Below are positions 3,701 to 25,083 of a stretch of DNA of 25,949 nucleotides, in pieces. Position numbers and translations under genes: made by a program. Positions within the stretch are counted from its first letter, which is position 1. Each line of letters begins with the position of its first letter. The notes below the pieces were generated by a model. That model ran no database searches and had not been told where the DNA came from. It was given only the letters and a program-made list of their open reading frames with translations. Source of the DNA: a virus; the IMG/VR virus record IMGVR_UViG_3300007539_000178, positions 1 to 25,949 of that record. The stretch is one strand, 5' to 3'.

Positions 3701-5689
3701 ATGGCGAAGAGTATTTTAGAATTTAAGTTTAACAATCCAGTTACAGAAGAGGATTCTTTTATAATTAACAGTACAATTCCAGATATGTATATACTGGTTA
3801 ACTGGGGTGTTACTTTACAGCCTACTGGTAGTATAAGTCAAGATTTAATAGCTACTCGTGATTTTTTTGAGAATAATTACGGTAGCTTATATATTACTGA
3901 AATAGATAATGTTAATAACACATTAACTGTTAAAGATCCTTACGACGCTACTACTTTTAGATTTAGTCAGCAAATGACTGATAACAGAGTTGAATTAACA
4001 TTAAAACAAGGCGCAGGTAATTTACCTATAAAAATAGAAGACGTTTCTGTTAGTGGAAATTCTGGTAATTGTGACAAATTTAACATATCTGTAACTACTA
4101 ACTACACTGCTAATAAAATGTACAGCCCTGTAGTTATAGATAACAACACAGATAATCCAATAATAGTAAATGATTTATTACGTGATGATGTAAATAAAAT
4201 TGATGTTAATATAGGTTACATTACTACTGATTATTATACTTTTGATAGTGTTAAGTTATATGTTCCTAACTTAAGAATTAGTAATTTTAATATAAGTGTA
4301 GTACAGACACCTAATAATAATACTGTTAACATTTCACCTATATTTTTAGATACTCCTTCTTTTAGTATTGAGTATAGTTTAGATGATGTTAATTATTATA
4401 AATCTTCTTCTTTTAGTGGATTAGTAAAGGGTACTTATAACATATATATAAGAGATAGTATAGGGTGTAAAATAAGTAGTACATTTGAAGTAAAAGAATT
4501 TAACCCTAATGTATATGATAGAAAGGAAATATTTGAATTTTCTCAAATGAGTAGTTTAATTCATGTATTTAGAGATAATAAAAGAAAGAATTACAAAAAC
4601 ACTTTAGCTTGTGAAGAAAGAAATAGTTTTTTATATAGTAATCCTCAACCATTTCAAAAAGATGATGGTATTTTAACAAATCAATTTAAATCTTCTTACG
4701 AGAATTTTGATTTTAGGCTTTATGATTCACAAGATAACGAAATTAGCACTTTAAACATTGAGAAAGTATCTAACTTAATAAATATACAGGATGAAAGAGA
4801 CGCTTTTTTATCTTCATTTGACTATAAAGGCTCTAAATACTTAGGTTTACAGTATAAAGGAGGTAATATATACAATACAGATGGAACTGTAAAAGAAACG
4901 TATTACAATAATGGTTCTGTCCCAAATTTCATGACAAAAGGGGACAATGTAGGTGTAGATAATAAATGGTTTAAAGTTTTAGATGTATTGGTTTATAATA
5001 ATCAACAAACATTAATACTTGACTTATTAAGTAGTAATAGCCCTTTTGCTTTAGATCAAACATATAAAGTACAAGCTGTTTATAACTATCAAGACTTTGA
5101 CTTTTACGAGTATAAGGTTAATGTTAGTTCATTGGATGGTATTTATTATGTTAAAGGTGTAGCTACTGATAGCTTGTTTAGTGATATAAATTTTGTAACA
5201 GAACGTTTTGAGGTTAAAGATTATCATTATAACACTTACTATTTAGAGTATTATAATACATCAAGTAATTTAAATACTTATTATGGTGCTAATGCAAGGT
5301 TTAAGCTAAGAATACCATACGAAAAACCTTTATATCATTCACCAATAGAGGAGATAGAAACTTTTGATACAGATAAAAACTCTGTAAGTGTAGAGTCTAC
5401 AACTAGAAGTTTATGGACTTTAGATACAATGAATTTATTTACTAATTTTGCTAGAAAGTTGGACGCTGTAACAACTAACGATAGAATATTTTTAGAAGAT
5501 ATTAGTTATATAAAATCACAAGACACAGAACAAAATGTTTTAGGTCAAACTAATTCTTATAGAATGAAAATATATTTAAAAGAAGCTAATTATGTTTATT
5601 CTAACGGTAAAGAGAATTTAATTACAGGAAATGAAGTAGCTGGTACTGGTGTATTTGGTGAAGTTTTAGGTGTAAAAAGTAATAATTAA
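3701..5689 (+). CDS. Tail protein with a SprB-like repeat domain
   Basis: 662 residues, second large gene after the tape measure. Residues about 192-266 read like one SprB-type repeat: a YSLDD segment, then FSGLVKGTYNIYIRDSIGC, matching the pattern 'ysidg...f..l.aGtYtv.v.D..GC' of SprB repeats in Flavobacteriia surface adhesins. The rest is beta-rich, Asn/Tyr/Ser-rich and not recognised. Its place between a baseplate-like gene and fibre genes suggests a tail-tip or adsorption structural protein. The domain could equally be a generic Ig-like fold, which phage tails often carry. Start chosen at the ATG 3 bases after the previous stop (TAATAAATGG context). Confidence 0.68.
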   Translation: MAKSILEFKFNNPVTEEDSFIINSTIPDMYILVNWGVTLQPTGSISQDLIATRDFFENNYGSLYITEIDNVNNTLTVKDPYDATTFRFSQQMTDNRVELTLKQGAGNLPIKIEDVSVSGNSGNCDKFNISVTTNYTANKMYSPVVIDNNTDNPIIVNDLLRDDVNKIDVNIGYITTDYYTFDSVKLYVPNLRISNFNISVVQTPNNNTVNISPIFLDTPSFSIEYSLDDVNYYKSSSFSGLVKGTYNIYIRDSIGCKISSTFEVKEFNPNVYDRKEIFEFSQMSSLIHVFRDNKRKNYKNTLACEERNSFLYSNPQPFQKDDGILTNQFKSSYENFDFRLYDSQDNEISTLNIEKVSNLINIQDERDAFLSSFDYKGSKYLGLQYKGGNIYNTDGTVKETYYNNGSVPNFMTKGDNVGVDNKWFKVLDVLVYNNQQTLILDLLSSNSPFALDQTYKVQAVYNYQDFDFYEYKVNVSSLDGIYYVKGVATDSLFSDINFVTERFEVKDYHYNTYYLEYYNTSSNLNTYYGANARFKLRIPYEKPLYHSPIEEIETFDTDKNSVSVESTTRSLWTLDTMNLFTNFARKLDAVTTNDRIFLEDISYIKSQDTEQNVLGQTNSYRMKIYLKEANYVYSNGKENLITGNEVAGTGVFGEVLGVKSNN

Positions 5690-6606: not shown

Positions 6607-6642
6607 AATAAAATTAATATTAACATATAAAAATAAATTCTA

Positions 6643-6996
6643 ATGTACAAAGTTTTTGTAAAAGGGTCTAAATTCTACATAAAAGGAAAAGACCAAGATT
6701 TTGAGTATTCAGACTTAGCGAAAAATGTATTAATAACACAAAATTCTCAGACAACTGATGATTTTTACTTTCAAAATGTTAACGGATGGTATCCTACAAA
6801 GAAAGTTAATATTTCAGATTTATTTGATGAAAAAGGTAATGCTTACACAAAAAGTTCGTTTATATCTTTCATAGAGAATAAACTGGGAAAGGGTAACGGC
6901 GGTACTAATGGCGCGAGTATCGCTGACGATATGTATTTTGATACTACAGCCAAAAGAGATGATTTTACTAACGATAATCCTGATAGGATATTTTAG
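6643..6996 (+). CDS. N-terminal part of a tail fibre protein, stopped by an in-frame TAG
   Basis: 117 residues ending at TAG 6994-6996. The same frame stays open to TAA 7288-7290 with similar codon use, so the 117-residue product looks like the first part of a 215-codon gene. The N-terminus is a small beta-rich module (MYKVFVKGSKFYIKGKD). The part before the stop (FDTTAKRDDFTNDNPDRIF) and after it (GVTCAVKNGSNFNYYQYD) read as one continuous domain, with the TAG at a place where CAG (Gln) would fit by one transition. The leader is A-rich with no Shine-Dalgarno. Product could be truncated, made by readthrough, or inactive. Confidence 0.6.
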   Translation: MYKVFVKGSKFYIKGKDQDFEYSDLAKNVLITQNSQTTDDFYFQNVNGWYPTKKVNISDLFDEKGNAYTKSSFISFIENKLGKGNGGTNGASIADDMYFDTTAKRDDFTNDNPDRIF

Positions 6997-10346: not shown

Positions 10347-10377
10347 TTGGTAGTAATTAAAAAAAACATTATATTTG
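10347..10377 (+). promoter_or_regulatory. Bacteroidota-type promoter for the first early operon
   Basis: TTG at 10347-10349, 20-base spacer, TATATTTG at 10370-10377, matching TTG-N20-TAnnTTTG. The spacer contains ATTAAAAAAAACAT, the element shared with other promoters in this window. It also starts with GTAGT next to the -33 G, giving the GGTAGT half-site seen in the palindrome of the promoter at 20052. The ATG follows 22 bases after the -7 box. Confidence 0.8.
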
Positions 10378-12545: not shown

Positions 12546-13244
12546 ATGAAAGAAAGAAAAGCATTTAATTTTTTAAGATCATACTACGAAGTTTTTATGG
12601 CTTTAACAGATGATAAAGACAAATTACAGTTTTTACAGGCTATACTTAAAAAGCAATTTGAAGGTGAAGAACCAGAAGATTTAACACCAATGGCTAATGT
12701 ATGTTATATAGGTCAAAAACATTCTTTAGACGCTAGTTTAAATGGTTATTTAACAAAAGTTAAGGGTATAAAAGACAGAAAAAAAGACACCCCTAGTCAA
12801 GACACTTGCCAAGACCCTAGCCAAGCCCCTTATGAAGCCCCTAGCCAAGCCCCTAAGCAAACCCCTTGCCAACAAGAGGAAGAGAAAGAGAAAGAGAAAG
12901 AAGAATATAAAGAAGAAGAAAAATTAAAAAAAGATAAAATAGATTTTAAAATACTTTTAGATTTTATAAATTTAAAAACTGGTAGAGGTTTTAAAGTAAT
13001 TAACAAATCAGTAAGACAGAAATACAATGCTAGGTTAAAAGATGGTTTCACAAAAGAAGATATTAGGAATTCTATCATAAACGCTTGTAATGATAAATTT
13101 GAGCAAAGTTTAAACTACCAAAACTTAACACCAGAATATTTTTCAAGAGAAAAAGTATTAAATAGATTCTCTAATGTTTTAAAAATTAATGTAAATCAAA
13201 AAGTTTCTAACCAAGAATGGAAGTCAAACCCATATAACAATTAA
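12546..13244 (+). CDS. Phage replication protein, DUF6291-like N-terminus and Phg_2220_C-like C-terminus
   Basis: 232 residues. N-terminal about 1-78 (AFNFLRSYYEVFMALTD, then LQFLQAILKKQFEG and SLDASLNGYLTKVKG) matches DUF6291-type proteins of phage replication modules. Residues 82-110 are seven four-residue units of the P-x-Q-A/D type, encoded by a 12-nt tandem repeat. A Lys/Glu-rich coil follows (about 111-131). The C-terminus (about 135-212, FINLKTGRGFKVINKSVRQKYNARLKDGF, in two pieces, then LTPEYFSREKVLNRF) matches the conserved phage C-terminal domain. Such proteins act as replication initiators or helicase loaders; a DnaB-like helicase is two genes downstream. Confidence 0.72.
   Translation: MKERKAFNFLRSYYEVFMALTDDKDKLQFLQAILKKQFEGEEPEDLTPMANVCYIGQKHSLDASLNGYLTKVKGIKDRKKDTPSQDTCQDPSQAPYEAPSQAPKQTPCQQEEEKEKEKEEYKEEEKLKKDKIDFKILLDFINLKTGRGFKVINKSVRQKYNARLKDGFTKEDIRNSIINACNDKFEQSLNYQNLTPEYFSREKVLNRFSNVLKINVNQKVSNQEWKSNPYNN
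12788..12873 (+). repeat. 12-nt tandem repeat encoding P-x-Q-A units
   Basis: About seven imperfect units of the form CCCCTAGCCAAG, in frame, giving PSQD, TCQD, PSQA, PYEA, PSQA, PKQT, PCQQ. It is much more GC-rich than its surroundings and is followed by an AAGAGR-type hexamer run (about 12873-12900). The last unit and what follows share 19 identical bases with the noncoding array at 23490-23600. Confidence 0.8.
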
Positions 13245-18406: not shown

Positions 18407-20032
18407 ATGCAAAACAAGACATCATACAATAAATTAACAGACGAACAAAAGGAATTTGTAGCAATAACATATGCTAACGAAACATTAAACCATGAAGCTA
18501 AAATAAGTATTATATCAAACAAATTTAATGTTGCTGGTAGGACAGTGCGTAGATGGTGGCAAAAAATGGGATTGACAAGACCTTTAAGTAAATTAACACC
18601 TCAACTACAAAAAGCATCAAAAAAAGAAATAAATAAAAAAACAGATATATTACTTGTTACTTCAGCAATTAATACAACTTCTATAAATTACAATCAATTG
18701 TTATTTATGAAAAAGTTAGTTAAAAAAATAAAAAAAGATCATAATAAAAATGCTGAAATAGTAATAATACCTACAAGATATAGAAACCCTACAAGCCCAA
18801 CAGAATATATATCAAACCATAAAAAACAAAGGGAGTGGTGGGTTGAAGAGATAGAGGATTATTTATTATACAACAAAAGTGTTTTTGGTGATGTTATTAT
18901 AGGTGGTGATATTCCAGTACAAGCAACATCTCAAAACCCTTTAAACGGTATGAATGGATTTGCAGGTGATAAATCTTTAATTCTTGGTTCACCTAGAATA
19001 CATTACAAAACATTGCCTAGAATGTTAAAAGACCCTTTGCGTGTTATGTGTACAAGCGGAACTATAAGCGTTAAAAATTATTCAAGGAGTGTTGCAGGAG
19101 GTAAAGCAGATTTTAATCACTCAAACGGCTTTGTTATAATAGAAAAAAAGAAAGATAACACTTGTTTACCACCTAGAAATGTATTTGTAGAAGAAAACGG
19201 TAATTTTTCAGATATAGCTTATAGTTGTGTTAATGGTAAAATAGAAGAAACTAAAAAAGCCTTAAATTTAACACTAGGAGACACTCATAGATGGGTTTTA
19301 GATATGAAGTTACACTTAGAAACTAAAAATTTATTTAAAGATTATAGTTTTAACGATATAATTGTACATGATTTATTAGATGGATATACATTCAATCCTC
19401 ATGAAAGAAAAGACCCTTTTATAAGTAGATATAAAATAATTAACGGACATTATAAAATAAAGGAAGAAGTAGAACAAGCTTTAAAATATCCTTCTGATTT
19501 ATTAAATGATTTTAACGTTAAAAATATTAATGTTGTAGAAAGTAATCACGACATATTTTTAGATAGACATATTAACGATATGAACTGGAAAAATGATTTA
19601 CATAATTCTGATGCTTATTTAGAATACGCTTTAATACAACAAACAGTTAATTTAAAAGAATACGGTAATATATTTGGTTATTTAATGTATAAAAAGTACG
19701 AAAATCAAAGTAATGTAAAATATATAAAATGCGGAGATTCATTAGTTTTTAAAGGTGTTAAATTTGATCAACACGGAGAAAATGGGGTTAATGGTTCAAG
19801 AGGTAGTGTGCAAGGTTTTAAAAAGCTTAATATAAAGACAACTACTGCACATACACATTCACCTTCAATAAATGACGGTAATTTTTGCGTAGGTAAATCA
19901 TCTGTAAGGGAAGAGTATTACATCAGAAAAGGTTTAACAACACAGGCACAAGGTCACGCATTACAGTTTGAAAGTGGTAAAAGACAATTAATAGTATTTA
20001 ACAACGATTACGAGGTTACAAATTTAATTTAA
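18407..20032 (+). CDS. HTH plus metallophosphoesterase-like protein, T5 A1-like
   Basis: 541 residues, largest early-region gene. Residues about 10-55 (EQKEFVAITYA, then ISNKFNVAGRTVRRWWQKMGL) form a helix-turn-helix. The C-terminal two thirds carry metallophosphoesterase-type metal motifs: GDTH at 291-294, HDLLD near 321-325, SNHD at 379-382 (in place of GNHE), FDQHGENG at 453-460 and AHTHSP at 481-486. The order D-x-H, N-H-D, H, H-x-H is that of calcineurin-like phosphoesterases, including DNA nucleases such as Mre11. Phage proteins of this size are often annotated as 'A1', after the T5 pre-early protein involved in host DNA breakdown; I cannot verify the homology. A DNA-binding domain plus a nuclease-like site suggests action on DNA. 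Confidence 0.65.
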   Translation: MQNKTSYNKLTDEQKEFVAITYANETLNHEAKISIISNKFNVAGRTVRRWWQKMGLTRPLSKLTPQLQKASKKEINKKTDILLVTSAINTTSINYNQLLFMKKLVKKIKKDHNKNAEIVIIPTRYRNPTSPTEYISNHKKQREWWVEEIEDYLLYNKSVFGDVIIGGDIPVQATSQNPLNGMNGFAGDKSLILGSPRIHYKTLPRMLKDPLRVMCTSGTISVKNYSRSVAGGKADFNHSNGFVIIEKKKDNTCLPPRNVFVEENGNFSDIAYSCVNGKIEETKKALNLTLGDTHRWVLDMKLHLETKNLFKDYSFNDIIVHDLLDGYTFNPHERKDPFISRYKIINGHYKIKEEVEQALKYPSDLLNDFNVKNINVVESNHDIFLDRHINDMNWKNDLHNSDAYLEYALIQQTVNLKEYGNIFGYLMYKKYENQSNVKYIKCGDSLVFKGVKFDQHGENGVNGSRGSVQGFKKLNIKTTTAHTHSPSINDGNFCVGKSSVREEYYIRKGLTTQAQGHALQFESGKRQLIVFNNDYEVTNLI

Positions 20033-20051: not shown

Positions 20052-20082
20052 TTGGTAGTGTAGATATTTTATACTACCTTTG
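20052..20082 (+). promoter_or_regulatory. Promoter with embedded palindromic operator
   Basis: TTG at 20052-20054, 20-base spacer, TACCTTTG at 20075-20082. The inverted repeat GGTAGTGTA (20054-20062) / TATACTACC (20070-20078), with one mismatch and a 7-base centre, spans nearly the whole core promoter and overlaps both boxes. A copy of ATTAAAAAAAACAT lies just upstream (20039-20052) instead of in the spacer. This is the second promoter whose spacer is a palindrome, so it is probably repressed. ATG at 20111. Confidence 0.75.
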
Positions 20083-20887: not shown

Positions 20888-21304
20888 ATGATGGCGGCGG
20901 AAAAAGGCAATAAATACGCTCAAAAATATACTTTAGAAGAGTGGATTGATAAATTAAACAAAATATATGAAGACGCTTGTAATGGTAACATCTGGTCAAT
21001 ACAAGAAGCTTGGGTTAAAAATGGTATAAGACCATCAACAGTTAAATGGTGGATTAATAAAGAAAAGGAATTATCTGCTATAAAAGAAGATATAAATGAT
21101 GCTATTATAGCTAATTTAAATAGAAATTGTTTAAATGGAGACATGAATGTTACTGCTGGTATATGGAGAATGAAGATGTTAGGAGAAAAAGAGAAACAAG
21201 AAATAGTTAATACAAATGTAAATTTAAATACCTCACCAATAACTAAGGAGGAAATAGATAACATAAAAAAAGAAATAGAAAATAATAAGGATTTTGATAT
21301 ATAA
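20888..21304 (+). CDS. Terminase small subunit (probable)
   Basis: 138 residues; ATG at 20888 or 20891. The N-terminus (EKGNKYAQKYTLEEWIDKL) and the region about 45-60 (NGIRPSTVKWWINK) form a DNA-binding HTH-like fold, followed by a helical middle (INDAIIANLNRNCLNGDMNVTAGIWRMKMLGEKEK, in parts) and an acidic tail. This is the plan of Bacteroidota phage small terminases, which recognise packaging DNA. The large subunit gene is about 3.8 kb downstream rather than adjacent. A terminator follows. Confidence 0.68.
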   Translation: MMAAEKGNKYAQKYTLEEWIDKLNKIYEDACNGNIWSIQEAWVKNGIRPSTVKWWINKEKELSAIKEDINDAIIANLNRNCLNGDMNVTAGIWRMKMLGEKEKQEIVNTNVNLNTSPITKEEIDNIKKEIENNKDFDI

Positions 21305-21401
21305 AATTATGTAATTTAAAAATAATTTATTATATTTATGTTCTTCATAAAAATAAAATCAGTTTTTTGATTTTTGTATTTGTTTTGGTTAATTGTTTTG
21401 T

Positions 21402-21441
21402 TACGGCTGTCTTGGGTTCTCCATTTCAGCCGTATTTTTTT
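21402..21441 (+). terminator. Rho-independent terminator after the small terminase
   Basis: TACGGCTG (21402-21409) pairs perfectly with CAGCCGTA (21427-21434), 8 bp around a 17-base loop, then T at 21435-21441. It also lies at the 3' end of the minus-strand gene, whose stop overlaps the T-run, so that convergent transcript ends here as well. Confidence 0.82.
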
Positions 21442-21637
21442 AAACAACTTTTTGAAAACAGTAGTTACCATAATCAAAAGAATTAGTACTCTTAAAACGT
21501 CTATAAAACCAATTATATTTCTTACCTATATCAGTCATATATTCTAATTCTTTAACAAATAAAGTTAAATTACTTTCAGCTACTACAACCTTGTTATCTA
21601 AACAACAAGTATACAAAACCTTAACATTATCATTCAT
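21440..21637 (-). CDS. Unknown minus-strand protein, 65 residues
   Basis: The only convincing minus-strand gene. ATG at 21637 (minus), TAA at 21440-21442. Composition is normal for this phage (Asn, Lys, Tyr, Phe, two adjacent Cys at 11-12, one Trp) and no plus-strand gene shadows it. Sequence such as VLYTCCLDNKVVVAE and YNWFYRRFKSTN suggests a small alpha/beta fold. Its upstream region runs toward the promoter of the structured RNA unit, so the two would be divergent. No family recognised. Confidence 0.5.
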   Translation of the reverse strand: MNDNVKVLYTCCLDNKVVVAESNLTLFVKELEYMTDIGKKYNWFYRRFKSTNSFDYGNYCFQKVV

Positions 21638-21678
21638 AATTATAAAATTAAATTACTTACATTATTTTTAAAAAAAAT

Positions 21679-21709
21679 TTGTTTTATTCAATAAATATAC
21701 GTATTATTG
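21679..21709 (+). promoter_or_regulatory. Promoter of the structured RNA unit
   Basis: TTG at 21679-21681, 20-base spacer, TATTATTG at 21702-21709, one mismatch from TAnnTTTG. The spacing matches the other promoters in the window. The transcript should begin at about 21714-21716. No ordinary gene follows; the downstream DNA holds hairpins and then a terminator at 22015. Confidence 0.6.
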
Positions 21710-21720
21710 TTAAGTAATCA

Positions 21721-21789
21721 ATGAGAAAATATATTTATTTTTCTACGAAGGTAGTTTTTATTTGGTTGGTGTTTTGTTTAGAAAACTAA
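21721..21789 (+). CDS. Possible 22-residue hydrophobic peptide at the 5' end of the RNA
   Basis: ATG 21721, TAA 21787: basic start MRKYIYFSTK and a hydrophobic core VVFIWLVFCL, ending in EN. The transcript would carry only about 5-8 bases of leader, and the ATG lies in the predicted helix 21721-21732/21790-21801, so translation could be shut off by structure. The peptide resembles type I toxin peptides in style only. It may be chance in a T-rich stretch. Confidence 0.3.
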   Translation: MRKYIYFSTKVVFIWLVFCLEN

Positions 21790-22014
21790 ATACTTTCTCG
21801 TTGTTTATAATAAGTGTTTAATGTTTAGTTTCCTGTATTTCTCACATTAAATATTTTAATTGTTTTTGGTTTGATAGGTAATAAAAGTCACTTTTGTTGT
21901 TGATTGTTGTTGATGATGTTGTTGATTGTGTTGTGTGTTTGTGACTTTTTACCTTATCAAATATTTTGATTTGGTTGTAGATTAGTTTTTGTTTTTATAT
22001 GTTTGGTTAATTTG

Positions 22015-22046
22015 AAAAGGGTTCTTTTAAAAGTTCCCTTTTTTTT
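22015..22046 (+). terminator. Rho-independent terminator of the RNA unit
   Basis: AAAAGGG (22015-22021) pairs with CCCTTTT (22036-22042). Inside, CTTTTAAAAG (22024-22033) is a further palindrome across a TT/TT internal loop. T runs at 22039-22046. The next promoter begins 10 bases later. Confidence 0.85.
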
Positions 22047-22055
22047 GTGTATTAT

Positions 22056-22086
22056 TTGTTTTTAATTAAAAAAATAATTACCTTTA
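22056..22086 (+). promoter_or_regulatory. Bacteroidota-type promoter
   Basis: TTG at 22056-22058, 20-base spacer with ATTAAAAAAATAAT, TACCTTTA at 22079-22086, one mismatch. ATG 28 bases later at 22115. Confidence 0.65.
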
Positions 22087-22114
22087 CATTGTATTAATAA
22101 TTAAAAATAAACAA

Positions 22115-22399
22115 ATGAAAGAAGTAAAAACATATTGGAATAACGGTAATGTTAAGACAGTTGAAAAGTTTACAGATAGAAATATCTTGCACTCTAAAAA
22201 AACATATTGTATAATATGTATTTACATAGGTGTTATATCTATAGTATTAATAAGCCTTTATTTATCGATTTACTCTATATTAAACACAGTTAAACATTTT
22301 ATGTACTTTGTGTATAGTATTATAAATATGGGTATATTTTGGGTTAGTTTTGGTATCTTTACTAAAGTAACTAAGTATATTAAAAAAATAAAATTATAA
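22115..22399 (+). CDS. MORN-like N-terminus fused to two membrane segments
   Basis: 94 residues. The first 20 (VKTYWNNGNVKTVEKF) match a MORN_2/YwqK-type unit, 'Y..NG..k....', also seen at 22965 and 23290. Two membrane segments follow (about 30-53, CIICIYIGVISIVLISLYL, and about 62-83) with a basic C-terminal end. Tiny for the family, which usually has several repeats. Alone on its transcript. Probably a membrane-attached accessory protein; role unknown. Confidence 0.58.
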   Translation: MKEVKTYWNNGNVKTVEKFTDRNILHSKKTYCIICIYIGVISIVLISLYLSIYSILNTVKHFMYFVYSIINMGIFWVSFGIFTKVTKYIKKIKL

Positions 22400-22406
22400 A
22401 AAACAC

Positions 22407-22437
22407 TTGCAAGTAATTAAAAAAAGAATTATCTTTG
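22407..22437 (+). promoter_or_regulatory. Promoter of the second lipoprotein
   Basis: TTG at 22407-22409 within the palindrome ACTTGCAAGT, 20-base spacer with ATTAAAAAAAGAAT, TATCTTTG at 22430-22437. ATG 24 bases later at 22462. Confidence 0.75.
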
Positions 22438-22461
22438 AGTATAATTAAAAAACATATAACA

Positions 22462-22692
22462 ATGAAAAAATTATTATTATCAATCGCAACATTAGCATTA
22501 TTATCTTGTAACAACGAAGTAGAAGTTGATCAAACAGAATGTTTAGAACGTATAAAGAAAGAGGAAAAGGAATGGATGGTTTTAATACGTAAATACGAGG
22601 GTTTAGGAGACTATCAAACAGTTAGTGAACTGTACAATGATTTAAACAGACAAGTTGCTAAAATAAAGGAAGAATGCGGTATTTTGGATTAA
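22462..22692 (+). CDS. Small lipoprotein, 76 residues
   Basis: Start at ATG 22462; the ATT/ATG-like frame before it overlaps the -7 box and is rejected. Type II signal peptide: MKK, core LLLSIATLAL, lipobox LLSC with Cys16. The residues after it (NNEVEVD) are acidic, as in lipoproteins displayed on the surface of some Bacteroidota. The mature part is a charged helix (about 28-70) with a second and third Cys at about 25 and 73. Its own promoter suggests expression apart from the tail genes; superinfection exclusion or host-surface change is a guess. Confidence 0.62.
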   Translation: MKKLLLSIATLALLSCNNEVEVDQTECLERIKKEEKEWMVLIRKYEGLGDYQTVSELYNDLNRQVAKIKEECGILD

Positions 22693-22785
22693 AAAAATAT
22701 ATTAAATTTGTAGTAATATACGTAATAATATACTTATCAATAATAATTAATAAAATAATAACAAAACTTAAAAACAATAAATAAT

Positions 22786-22968
22786 ATGACGCCAGAAGAA
22801 CACATAGAATACATTGATTATAAAATAGAATTAATTAATAAAAACATTAAGAAACTAGAGTTTTTAGAAAGAAGTGAACATTTAATAAATAACGTAAAAA
22901 AAGAACTAGAACATTATACAGACTGTAAAAATAGATTAGAAAAAGAAATAAAAAATAGGTTGAAATGA
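22786..22968 (+). CDS. Small coiled-coil protein, 60 residues
   Basis: One long charged helix with a heptad-like pattern (YIDYKIELINKNIKKLEFLE, then VKKELEHYTDCKNRLEKEI). Probably dimeric. Its stop overlaps the next start (ATGA over 22965-22968), so the pair is translated together. Function unknown; perhaps a partner of the MORN-like protein. Confidence 0.55.
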   Translation: MTPEEHIEYIDYKIELINKNIKKLEFLERSEHLINNVKKELEHYTDCKNRLEKEIKNRLK

Positions 22969-23312
22969 AAGTAAAAGAAAAATATTACAGTAATGGTAAT
23001 TTAAAAGAAAGAGAATATTTTTTTAAAAACGGTAATTTAAAAGAATTAAATACTTTTTTACCTAATGGAAAGTTAAGCAGTCGCTACTTTTACACTATAA
23101 ATAATATATTAAAATACGTATTGCATTATCATAATGACGGAAAAACTATCAAAACTGATTTTTTATTTGATGATAAAGGTTTTTTAAAATCTAATTTTAA
23201 TTATAATAAAAGAAACATTTTAAAAAGTAGGATTTTTTTTAAAAAAGGAGTTCCAGATATAATAGAATATTACAACCAAAAAGGAGAATATGAAAGACAA
23301 GAAATATTATAA
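22965..23312 (+). CDS. MORN_2/YwqK-like repeat protein
   Basis: 115 residues of repeating units of about 20 residues: YYSNGNLKEREYFFKNGNLKE, split across two units, then FLPNGKLSS, YHNDGKTIKTDF, FDDKGFLKSN and YYNQKGEYERQEIL. The 'y..nG.l......' pattern is the MORN_2 repeat seen in the YwqK family, some members of which have been named antitoxins. Such proteins are beta-meander folds that bind partners. It overlaps the coiled-coil gene by 4 bases and the next ORF by 23. Confidence 0.66.
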   Translation: MKVKEKYYSNGNLKEREYFFKNGNLKELNTFLPNGKLSSRYFYTINNILKYVLHYHNDGKTIKTDFLFDDKGFLKSNFNYNKRNILKSRIFFKKGVPDIIEYYNQKGEYERQEIL

Positions 23313-23397
23313 AAACGGTTTATTAAAGTTTAAATACAATCATTTAAAAGATAAAAATTTATATAATATATATATATATATATATGCCTTGTGGTAA
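23290..23397 (+). pseudogene. MORN-like ORF interrupted at an (AT)10 repeat
   Basis: ATG at 23290 inside the end of the preceding gene, 35 codons, ending at TAA 23395. The first 22 residues (MKDKKYYKNGLLKFKYNHLK) match a MORN_2 unit. The frame then enters an (AT)10 tract and terminates soon after it. Another frame continues with MPCGKLLSIETYSKKEI (23384-23461), which reads like the rest of the same repeat. One added AT unit, or two lost, would join the two into one 57-residue protein. Confidence 0.4.
23366..23385. repeat. (AT)10 dinucleotide repeat
   Basis: Ten AT units inside a MORN-like ORF, at the exact point where the two halves lose frame. Dinucleotide tracts slip during replication and can turn a gene on and off. 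It could also be a sequencing or assembly error in a hard-to-read tract. Confidence 0.8.
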
Positions 23398-23461
23398 GTT
23401 ACTTTCTATAGAAACATATTCTAAAAAAGAAATATTATTATCTGTTAAATACAATGTTTAA
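23384..23461 (+). pseudogene. Downstream half of the frameshifted MORN-like ORF
   Basis: 25 codons from ATG 23384 to TAA 23459 (MPCGKLLSIETYSKKEILLSV and on). CGKLLSIETYSKKEI fits the MORN_2 spacing that continues the unit at 23290. The tract before it, not a gap, separates the two. Not counted as an independent gene. Confidence 0.35.
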
Positions 23462-23489
23462 AGTACTGTAAATCAATAAGTTAAACATA

Positions 23490-23600
23490 CCCTTAGCAAG
23501 CCCCTTGCATACCCCCTTAGGTAGGGGCTTGGGTAACCCCTTAGCAAGGGTCTTAGTAAGGGGCTTAGGTAACCCCTTGGGTAACCCCTTGCCAACAAGA
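23490..23600 (+). repeat. GC-rich 12-nt tandem array in noncoding DNA
   Basis: About nine imperfect 12-base units (CCCTTAGCAAGC, CCCTTGCATACC, CCCTTAGGTAGG, GGCTTGGGTAAC and so on), markedly GC-rich against an AT-rich background. Units of opposite polarity occur, so short hairpins such as CCCTTAGCAAGGG can form. It ends in 19 bases identical to the end of the array in the replication protein (12860-12878 = 23583-23601), and the AAGAGT run after it (to about 23626) parallels the AAGAGR run there. The frame from TTG 23505 reads through it as LGNP-type units into the gene at 23655. Confidence 0.78.
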
Positions 23601-23654
23601 GTAAGAGTAAGTATAAGAGTAAGTATAATATTAAATAAAAAAATATATAAAAAA

Positions 23655-23852
23655 ATGACAATTTTAATACGAGATAACGATTCAGAATATATTTTAAATA
23701 AAAAGTTTAATAACGGTAACATAGTATTAATAAGATACTCAAAAGAAGTTTTTAAAACAGATATTTACGTAAATGGAATATTGAGAAAAAGAAAATTTAA
23801 AAAGTATAAAAAGAAAGTGATTAGAATATGTTATGAATATAACAGTAAATAA
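23655..23852 (+). CDS. Unknown basic 65-residue protein
   Basis: Start at ATG 23655; a frame open upstream to TTG 23505 would add 50 residues from the repeat array, which is less likely. Strand-rich and Lys-rich (MTILIRDNDSEYILNKKFNNGN, split in two, and DIYVNGILRKRKFKKYKKK). FNNGN and YVNG recall the MORN-type neighbours, but the repeat pattern is weak. Function unknown. Confidence 0.5.
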   Translation: MTILIRDNDSEYILNKKFNNGNIVLIRYSKEVFKTDIYVNGILRKRKFKKYKKKVIRICYEYNSK

Positions 23853-23870
23853 ACTAAAAAACTTAAAATA

Positions 23871-24038
23871 ATGAAAAAAGCAATAAAGGAATCCATAGTT
23901 TACGCATTAATATATTTTTTATTAATTTACATTTTAGGTAATTTAAAAAAAAATGTTTTAGATATAGTATTCATAATTTCAACTATACATGTAGTCGTAC
24001 GCATTTCTAATAAAATTTCAAAATGGTTAATTAAATAA
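23871..24038 (+). CDS. Small membrane protein, 55 residues
   Basis: ATG 23871, TAA 24036. Basic start (MKKAIKES), one long hydrophobic segment (about 9-23, IVYALIYFLLIYILG), a second at about 29-43 (VLDIVFIISTIHVVV), and a basic end (NKISKWLIK). Probably integral to the inner membrane. It begins 18 bases after the previous stop. Function unknown. Confidence 0.48.
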   Translation: MKKAIKESIVYALIYFLLIYILGNLKKNVLDIVFIISTIHVVVRISNKISKWLIK

Positions 24039-24046
24039 CTAAAATA

Positions 24047-24089
24047 TTAAATTAAGAGTCTTATTAATCTTTTTTATACTCTAATTTAA
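24047..24089. other. AT-rich inverted repeat in an intergenic stretch
   Basis: TTAAATTAAGAGT (24047-24059) pairs with ACTCTAATTTAA (24078-24089), 12 bp with one bulge, 18-base loop. No T-run follows, so it is a poor terminator. The 226-base gap (24039-24264) otherwise holds only a promoter at 24216. Could be a weak stop signal or a protein-binding site. Confidence 0.4.
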
Positions 24090-24215
24090 AATATAAGCTA
24101 TAAAACATTAATTTTAAGAGACTTTTATATATTTTTGATACATTGATATACATTAGGTAATTTAAATGTCTTAAATAGGCTTATTTTAAATTAATGATTA
24201 TTAAGTTATTAATTT

Positions 24216-24244
24216 TTGATATAATTAAAAAAACACTATATTTG
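24216..24244 (+). promoter_or_regulatory. Bacteroidota-type promoter, short spacer
   Basis: TTG at 24216-24218, spacer of 18 rather than 20 bases with ATTAAAAAAACAC, TATATTTG at 24237-24244. ATG 20 bases later at 24265. Drives the small genes before the terminase. Confidence 0.68.
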
Positions 24245-24264
24245 TGTAAGTAAAAACAATTAAA

Positions 24265-24375
24265 ATGAGTAAAAAAGCATTAACATTTATTGATGATATT
24301 TTAAATGAGAAATATTTACTTAAAAATATTTTATTAAAAATAGAATCATGTATTTTAGAATACGAAAAACAATAA
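24265..24375 (+). CDS. Small helical protein, 36 residues
   Basis: ATG 24265, TAA 24373, first gene behind the promoter at 24216. One amphipathic helix (LTFIDDILNEKYLLKNILLK) and a charged end. Its 5'-proximal position on a transcript argues it is real. No family recognised. Confidence 0.48.
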   Translation: MSKKALTFIDDILNEKYLLKNILLKIESCILEYEKQ

Positions 24376-24407
24376 AGTATTAACCTTTTTTAAAAAACAA
24401 TTAACTT

Positions 24408-24668
24408 ATGGAAATAATAACAATTATATTAGCAATATCAATAGTATTTATATATATACAGAACTACAAGATTAAAAAAGATGTTAAAGGTTTAAAAACA
24501 TTGGTTAAAGTTCTTTACAAAGAAAACTATAAATTTGATGATGAAATTAAACGTCCTAAATTTCCTGAAAGGAGTGATATGAAACCGCCTCCTTCTCCTG
24601 AAAAAATAGAATGCAGTAATGAATGTATACATATAACAGAAGATATTAAAAAATATATAAAAAAATGA
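24408..24668 (+). CDS. Membrane-anchored protein with proline-rich tail, 86 residues
   Basis: N-terminal membrane segment (about 3-19, IITIILAISIVFIYIQ), then a basic helix (KIKKDVKGLKTLVKVLYKEN), then a proline-rich stretch (MKPPPSPEK) and two Cys in the C-terminus (CSNEC). The anchor plus helix plus proline-rich layout recalls Rz-type proteins, but the gene is far from the lysis cassette. Its stop overlaps the next start by 4 bases (AAAAATGAAA). Confidence 0.5.
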   Translation: MEIITIILAISIVFIYIQNYKIKKDVKGLKTLVKVLYKENYKFDDEIKRPKFPERSDMKPPPSPEKIECSNECIHITEDIKKYIKK

Positions 24669-24793
24669 AACAAGTAAAAAAAGATTGGGTTAAAAAAGTA
24701 AGTACAGTTCTAGCTTATGAATTTGGTTTTTTAAAAGTAGTTGAAAAAAATAAACACATTGGATTTTGGGAATCTTGTTCAAAAATAAAATAA
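24665..24793 (+). CDS. Small basic protein, 42 residues
   Basis: ATG 24665, TAA 24791, overlapping the preceding gene's TGA. Basic, with two Trp and several aromatics (DWVKKVSTVLAYEFGFLK, then HIGFWESCSK). No family recognised. The overlap supports translation. Confidence 0.45.
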   Translation: MKQVKKDWVKKVSTVLAYEFGFLKVVEKNKHIGFWESCSKIK

Positions 24794-24803
24794 ATACAAT
24801 AAT

Positions 24804-25019
24804 ATGAAATTTTACAAAAACACAGAGTTTCCGAAAAAGACAAAAAAAGATGAGTCTGAGTCAGTTAAAGTCATTATGTCAGATAAGTATGGTAATTTAT
24901 ATATAGGCTTTTACTGTTTTGTAGATAAAGAATGGAATTTCATTTATTCTTATGATTTTTTTGATAAAGACAATTTTATATGGTGGTATCCTCCAACAGA
25001 AAGAACTGAACAATTTTAA
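24804..25019 (+). CDS. Possible DUF551-like protein, 71 residues
   Basis: Strand-rich with a Trp-rich second half (EWNFIYSYDFFDKDNFIWWYPPTE). The pattern 'P......V.V......g....g.Y......W.........v..W.P' resembles DUF551, a small domain common in phage genomes, but the Trp and Pro spacing is only approximate. Unknown function. Last gene before the terminator hairpin and the large terminase. Confidence 0.42.
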   Translation: MKFYKNTEFPKKTKKDESESVKVIMSDKYGNLYIGFYCFVDKEWNFIYSYDFFDKDNFIWWYPPTERTEQF

Positions 25020-25041
25020 AATAAATAAAAATAAAACAAAG

Positions 25042-25071
25042 ACCGCGTTTATATTAAATAGCGGTTTTTTT
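25042..25071 (+). terminator. Terminator-like hairpin just before the large terminase
   Basis: ACCGC (25042-25046) pairs with GCGGT (25061-25065), with a further TTTA/TAAA pairing inside, followed by T at 25065-25071. The terminase ATG is only 12 bases further and no promoter fits in between, so transcription of the terminase must pass this hairpin or start within it. Confidence 0.65.
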
Positions 25072-25083
25072 ACGTTATAAAAT

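Follow-up and report, generated by a model that had tools for sequence, protein, structure and literature searches.

A structured, gene-free unit between the terminase genes of a flavobacterial phage, most likely a small-RNA gene

What is the role of a strongly folding stretch of phage DNA that lies between two terminase genes and holds no ordinary gene? The locus, positions 21679-22046, was analyzed within a window comprising an entire IMG/VR virus record of 25,949 bp, which is probably a fragment of a genome. The source is a tailed phage of flavobacteria, and the window carries genes for tail proteins, a T5 A1-like DNA transfer protein (18407-20032; phrog_1745, E 5e-111), the terminase small subunit, TerS, and the start of TerL, which runs from 25084 to the window end. 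Among isolated phages, Tenacibaculum phage JQ is the closest, with 46% identity in TerL and 35-39% in tail proteins. The best IMG/VR contigs reached 60-65% identity in TerL. Scans with single proteins yielded no close relatives of terL, the A1 gene, or a 65-aa gene that neighbors the unit.

The position between the terminase genes, as originally predicted, was borne out: terS (20888-21304, plus strand; phrog_606, E 3e-4) lies to the left of the unit and terL to its right. The TerS protein is 30-41% identical to the ORF immediately upstream of terL in four related contigs (L011, L028, L032, and L036). In related contigs in which TerS was recognized, terS abuts terL with no RNA between them, versus approximately 3.8 kb of small genes plus the unit in this phage. 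Relative to those contigs, the small-gene block at 21305-25083 separates terS from terL in this phage only. One gene of the block, at 22462-22692, encodes a lipoprotein that weakly resembles the Cor superinfection-exclusion protein (phrog_1119, E 0.009).

This arrangement bears on a proposed role in packaging, which is unlikely: terS abuts terL in relatives without the RNA, and no convincing homologue of the unit was found in 20 related records. A general packaging role is disfavored because the unit is missing from the searched relatives that have a terminase pair of the same kind. The pRNA of phi29 is likewise a structured phage RNA, and the site of the unit between terminase genes invites the comparison. 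In phi29-type phages, pRNA works with another ATPase. A pRNA would be expected to accompany a motor lacking TerS and to be conserved with that motor, whereas this phage has both TerS and TerL, and the RNA was absent from the searched relatives that share its terminase. Moreover, the unit matched none of the Rfam pRNA families, either at the gathering score or with the threshold relaxed to E 10.

The unit lies in a well-delimited gap. On its left, a terminator after terS (21403-21441, plus strand; stem ACGGCTG/CAGCCGT followed by T7) ends the upstream operon; the stretch containing it, 21390-21445, folds at z -5.1, a value that no part of the unit matches. The 65-aa gene (21440-21637, minus strand) is divergent from the unit. 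The Freya and Danklef phages carry a homologue with 31% identity, which likewise lies on the minus strand amid plus-strand genes. A two-sequence alignment scan for this gene found no close relatives. The predicted structure of the 65-aa protein is a low-confidence model of four helices (pLDDT 66). To the right of this gene, 21638-22114 is the longest gap in the window that is free of ORFs of at least 45 aa. Indeed, no ORF of at least 30 aa with a start codon occurs in 21640-22090, in agreement with the claim that the unit contains no ordinary gene.

A shorter ORF of 22 codons, at 21721-21789 (MRKYIYFSTKVVFIWLVFCLEN), raises the alternative that the unit is a type I toxin mRNA encoding a small membrane peptide, with its start hidden in the first hairpin. 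The peptide has a positively charged start followed by a hydrophobic stretch, and its start codon falls within the basal stem of that hairpin. However, an ATG ORF at least as long occurs in 53% of dinucleotide-shuffled units, such that the ORF does not exceed chance; the start is approximately 11 nt past the -7 element, a distance that is 22-29 nt at most of the clear phage promoters; and no antisense partner was seen. A toxin mRNA is thus very improbable.

The structure of the unit exceeds chance. The stretch 21715-22050 folds at z -3.64 (0 of 100 shuffles). With the terminator left out, 21711-22010 folds at z -3.33, which is stronger than all 86 of 86 tiled 300-nt windows (best, -3.19). The signal resolves into three main plus-strand hairpins. 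Hairpin 1 (21715-21807) is long and imperfect (z -3.0, 2/150 shuffles). Hairpin 2 (21812-21856) is significant on the plus strand only: the stretch 21808-21862 has z values of -3.2 on the plus and -1.0 on the minus strand, a bias that arises from its dependence on G-U pairs and that agrees with the plus-strand terminator. Hairpin 3 (21869-21962) is the strongest (z -4.15, 0/150 shuffles). As predicted, it has a stem of about 20 bp around a C-free, TTG-rich loop: the stem, 21870-21891 with 21941-21961, comprises three runs of Watson-Crick pairs (7+5+8, 20 in all) interrupted by small bulges, and the loop, 21892-21940, is exactly 49 nt and contains no C. In a sliding 120-nt fold scan, the plus-strand signal appeared poorly because the windows cut across the hairpins.

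These data need to be weighed against the view that the unit has no RNA function and is an AT-rich spacer beside a terminator, whose repeats act in DNA, as an operator or a replication or packaging site, or are incidental. Each long hairpin, taken as a lone Watson-Crick inverted repeat (score 34), was matched about once per shuffled 26-kb window. Thus, the unusual feature is the cluster of hairpins within the longest ORF-free gap rather than any single long hairpin. The stems are mostly Watson-Crick, and the fold of the minus strand is likewise unusual (z -5.5); the weak promoter and the failure to find conservation point the same way. By contrast, several independent hairpins with z of -3 or below in one ORF-free gap, and a second hairpin that works on the plus strand only, are harder to reconcile with a spacer. 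Phages rarely keep some 330 nt without genes, which also weighs against this view. On balance, we consider an element without RNA function somewhat unlikely.

The 3' boundary of the unit is distinct. The strong terminator that had been claimed is an intrinsic terminator at 22014-22046 on the plus strand, with z -3.4 (0/150 shuffles) and a T8 tail. The 5' boundary is less so. The phage has a clear promoter class, TTG-N20-TANNTTTG, for which the plus strand has 8 perfect matches versus 1.65 in shuffles and the minus strand has none. The element TANNTTTG is the sigma-A -7 box in Flavobacterium (PMC9723704). Most of these sites also have AATTAAAAAAA in the spacer. In full, the class reads TTG-N5-AATTAAAAAAA-N4-TANNTTTG, with an exact 20-nt spacer and on the plus strand only; its members occur at 10347, 16336, 17845, 22056, 22407, and elsewhere, mostly 22-29 nt upstream of start codons. 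The probable promoter of the unit, TTG-N20-TATTATTG at 21679-21709 on the plus strand, consists of TTG at 21679-21681, the 20-nt spacer that is right for this phage, and TATTATTG at 21702-21709, with one mismatch and without AATTAAAAAAA. Using a matrix built from nine promoters of the phage, which themselves score 17.7-32.6 bits (8.9-29.1 in leave-one-out), this site scores 7.8 bits and ranks 25th, which is chance level for the whole window. Thus, the predicted sequence and spacing are present, but the score does not set the site apart. A transcription start near 21715 is no more than plausible.

Two further promoter-like sites were noted. A second match, TTG-N20-TATGTTTG, lies inside the unit at 21975-22005 on the plus strand; its hexamer match is perfect and its matrix score is -4.3, and it is probably due to chance. 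On the minus strand, a site at 21721-21692 overlaps the promoter of the unit. Shared control of the unit and the 65-aa gene through these overlapping sites is only a possibility, as the minus-strand site scores -10 bits on the phage matrix.

Overall, the folding statistics, the terminator, and the lack of ORFs give good support to a discrete structured-RNA unit read from the plus strand. Of the features that mark a small regulatory RNA as a discrete unit, the terminator and the lack of ORFs are present, while the promoter scores at chance level.

The order of promoter, structured RNA, and terminator recalls the 6S RNA, or late leader, of lambda, in which the same elements stand ahead of a block holding the terminase genes. 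By analogy, constant transcription could halt at 22046 until antitermination allowed expression of the small genes, terL, and the late genes; the location of the unit ahead of the terL block fits this scheme. However, the next gene, at 22115, has a strong promoter of its own at 22056-22086 (plus strand; matrix score 28.0, 23.7 in leave-one-out), separate from the unit, and the unit is therefore not simply its leader. Together with the strong promoter at 22407, that promoter makes read-through unnecessary, though not impossible. Unlike in lambda, the downstream genes have their own promoters, no antiterminator was recognized among the scanned proteins, and the two RNAs have no sequence relation. 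A terminated leader of this type is accordingly improbable.

A switch between two mutually exclusive hairpins had also been proposed. Both hairpins can be drawn: the alternative, ATCAAA/TTTGAT at 21956-21970, overlaps the base of hairpin 3. Enforcing it nevertheless costs 5.2 kcal/mol (-24.5 to -19.3), whereas an RNA switch calls for exclusive folds of similar energy, and the proposal is thus not supported. Hairpin 3 would also form before the alternative during transcription.

The search for homologues was consistent with the claim that the RNA is undescribed: Rfam gave no relevant match at the gathering score or up to E 10. A blastn search of the unit against 50,697 phage records found nothing at E 1e-5. 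Relaxing the cutoff to E 1 added only short matches, the best of them inside genes of Cellulophaga phages. Single-sequence covariance models of hairpins 1 and 2 together and of hairpin 3 matched the window alone in 632 kb of relatives (58 loci), and the hairpin-3 model found nothing in 395 Bacteroidota genomes. In IMG/VR, the loop pattern had 0 matches. Exact-pattern scans and single-sequence models have low sensitivity, and many of the relatives are fragmentary, so that this absence holds only for the sampled close relatives.

Several candidates were rejected. Among related contigs, the best short match (G004, E 1e-6) fell within a coding gene. The IMG/VR pattern matches for hairpin 3 (four) and hairpin 1 (nine) were all GC-richer, with the likeness limited to the pattern. 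A non-coding structured stretch (z -4.4) that follows the A1 gene in phage PTm1 resembles remnants of genes.

In phage JQ (L005, MT002873.2), an unannotated, ORF-free stretch at 34706-35095 ends in a terminator, folds at z -2.7, and contains three tandem repeats (TGCACTTTAAAARAAACAG) spaced 46-47 nt; it is itself a candidate non-coding RNA. It resembles the present unit in being an ORF-free promoter-to-terminator stretch of similar size. It differs in its tandem repeats and its place in the genome, and neither DNA search nor covariance models matched the two. Its presence in JQ hints that this phage group repeatedly carries ORF-free units that share no sequence.

GOLLD and ROOL are structured non-coding phage RNAs of unknown function that are often found near tRNA islands (PMC12286853). 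The unit shares their structured, non-coding nature, but GOLLD and ROOL are much larger, the unit has no Rfam match, and no tRNA occurs in the window.

To evaluate the proposed regulatory role, we examined the antisense potential of the unit. The plus-strand loop at 21892-21940, which is UUG-rich in the RNA, is a candidate antisense region. Its 10 best 30-nt duplex sites over the whole window were scored for overlap with start regions, in a test devised only once the sequence had been seen. Four of the 10 sites lie over start regions (genes 16766, 18407, 17055, and 20374), although such regions make up 6% of the DNA. Shuffled loops had a mean of about one start-region site, and a count of four was reached by none of 40 shuffles in one set and by 2 of 131 in another (2/171 together). 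The reversed loop placed 0 of its 10 best sites at start regions and, against phage JQ, the loop placed 1 of 10. The complementarity is thus specific to orientation and to this phage, and we take it as a lead rather than proof. In sequence, the loop amounts to a short tandem array of the TTG type, and an ideal TTGTTGTTGA repeat does equally well in the start-region test. The best duplexes have unremarkable energies, and in the minimum-energy fold part of the loop is paired with itself. A 12-mer antisense count for the whole unit was not significant (20 versus 13.9 ± 5.8). The same duplex test revealed no start-region preference of the 3' tail; within the tail, 21975-22003 is complementary to the start region of gene 6643 (6611-6650) over 29 nt at 86%, and the promoter-like match at 21975-22005 overlaps this stretch. 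The regulatory role originally suggested is plausible, and the antisense potential of the loop lends it weak new support.

Based on the abovementioned analyses, the unit is an above-chance structured element and most likely a phage small-RNA gene without known relatives, with any mechanism provisional. As to that mechanism, we tentatively favor a trans-acting small RNA that turns down genes of the phage itself at translation initiation, a reading that rests on the fold (z -3.64, and -3.33 without the terminator), the terminator, the absence of ORFs, the strand bias of hairpin 2, and the loop test. Against it stand the failure of the searches to find a homologue and the chance-level score of the promoter. 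Transcription would begin near 21715 and end at about 22046, yielding an RNA of approximately 330 nt with three main hairpins and the terminator. Within hairpin 3, the large UUG-rich loop, which lacks C, would remain open. It would base-pair with some phage mRNAs at their start codons and leaders, which are rich in A and C and poor in G, the best target sites being in genes 16766, 18407 (the A1-like DNA transfer gene), 17055, and 20374. Such pairing would hinder ribosome entry and thereby turn the target genes down. That the RNA is made, that its loop is open, and that the targets are repressed is in each case inferred.

Base-pairing small RNAs of phages include sar of P22, OOP and PreS of lambda, and VpdS of VP882 (PMC12197685). 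The putative RNA would resemble sar and the others in being a stand-alone phage transcript; sar, moreover, acts by pairing to block the start of translation of a phage gene, the mode of action proposed here. The unit differs in having no sequence relation to these RNAs, a length of about 330 nt, a very large hairpin loop, and several candidate targets. Moreover, it comes from a phage of flavobacteria, and its transcript and pairing are putative, unlike those of sar, OOP, PreS, and VpdS.

Alternatively, a structured phage RNA could act on the host, pairing with host mRNAs or occupying a host RNA-binding protein through its UUG-rich loop. The structural evidence would serve this possibility equally, and the unit heads a small-gene block with a Cor-like lipoprotein, as would be expected of host-directed accessory genes. 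As the start-region preference of the loop is for its own phage and not for JQ, a host-directed RNA is unlikely. Bolder and more doubtful still is the idea that the unit is an orphan RNA of a new family whose UUG-repeat loop serves as a broad antisense to start regions of the phage, so that one loop would turn down a set of genes, the A1-like gene included. Start regions in this phylum lack Shine-Dalgarno sequences. Provided that the small RNA is made and that its loop does pair with start regions, the phage would illustrate how several genes can be controlled together in bacteria that make no use of Shine-Dalgarno sequences. The searches made found no described regulatory RNA of a flavobacterial phage, and the present finding supplies a precise transcript, loop, and target list for testing.

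Three additional features of these genomes were observed. A perfect promoter at 20052-20082 has a spacer that is itself an inverted repeat (GGTAGTGTA...TATACTACC) and is possibly an operator. In related contig L013, a sequence resembling the 3' portion of a tRNA (GGTTCGAATCCCCCTACCTTC) occurs upstream of terL, at approximately 4280-4310. Finally, this very AT-rich phage contains a family of GC-rich 12-nt repeats (about CCCCTWGCYAAG) at 12790-12872 and 23490-23600, with five copies in the gene at 12546-13244 and several, in both orientations, in the spacer and small-gene area at 23490-23600.
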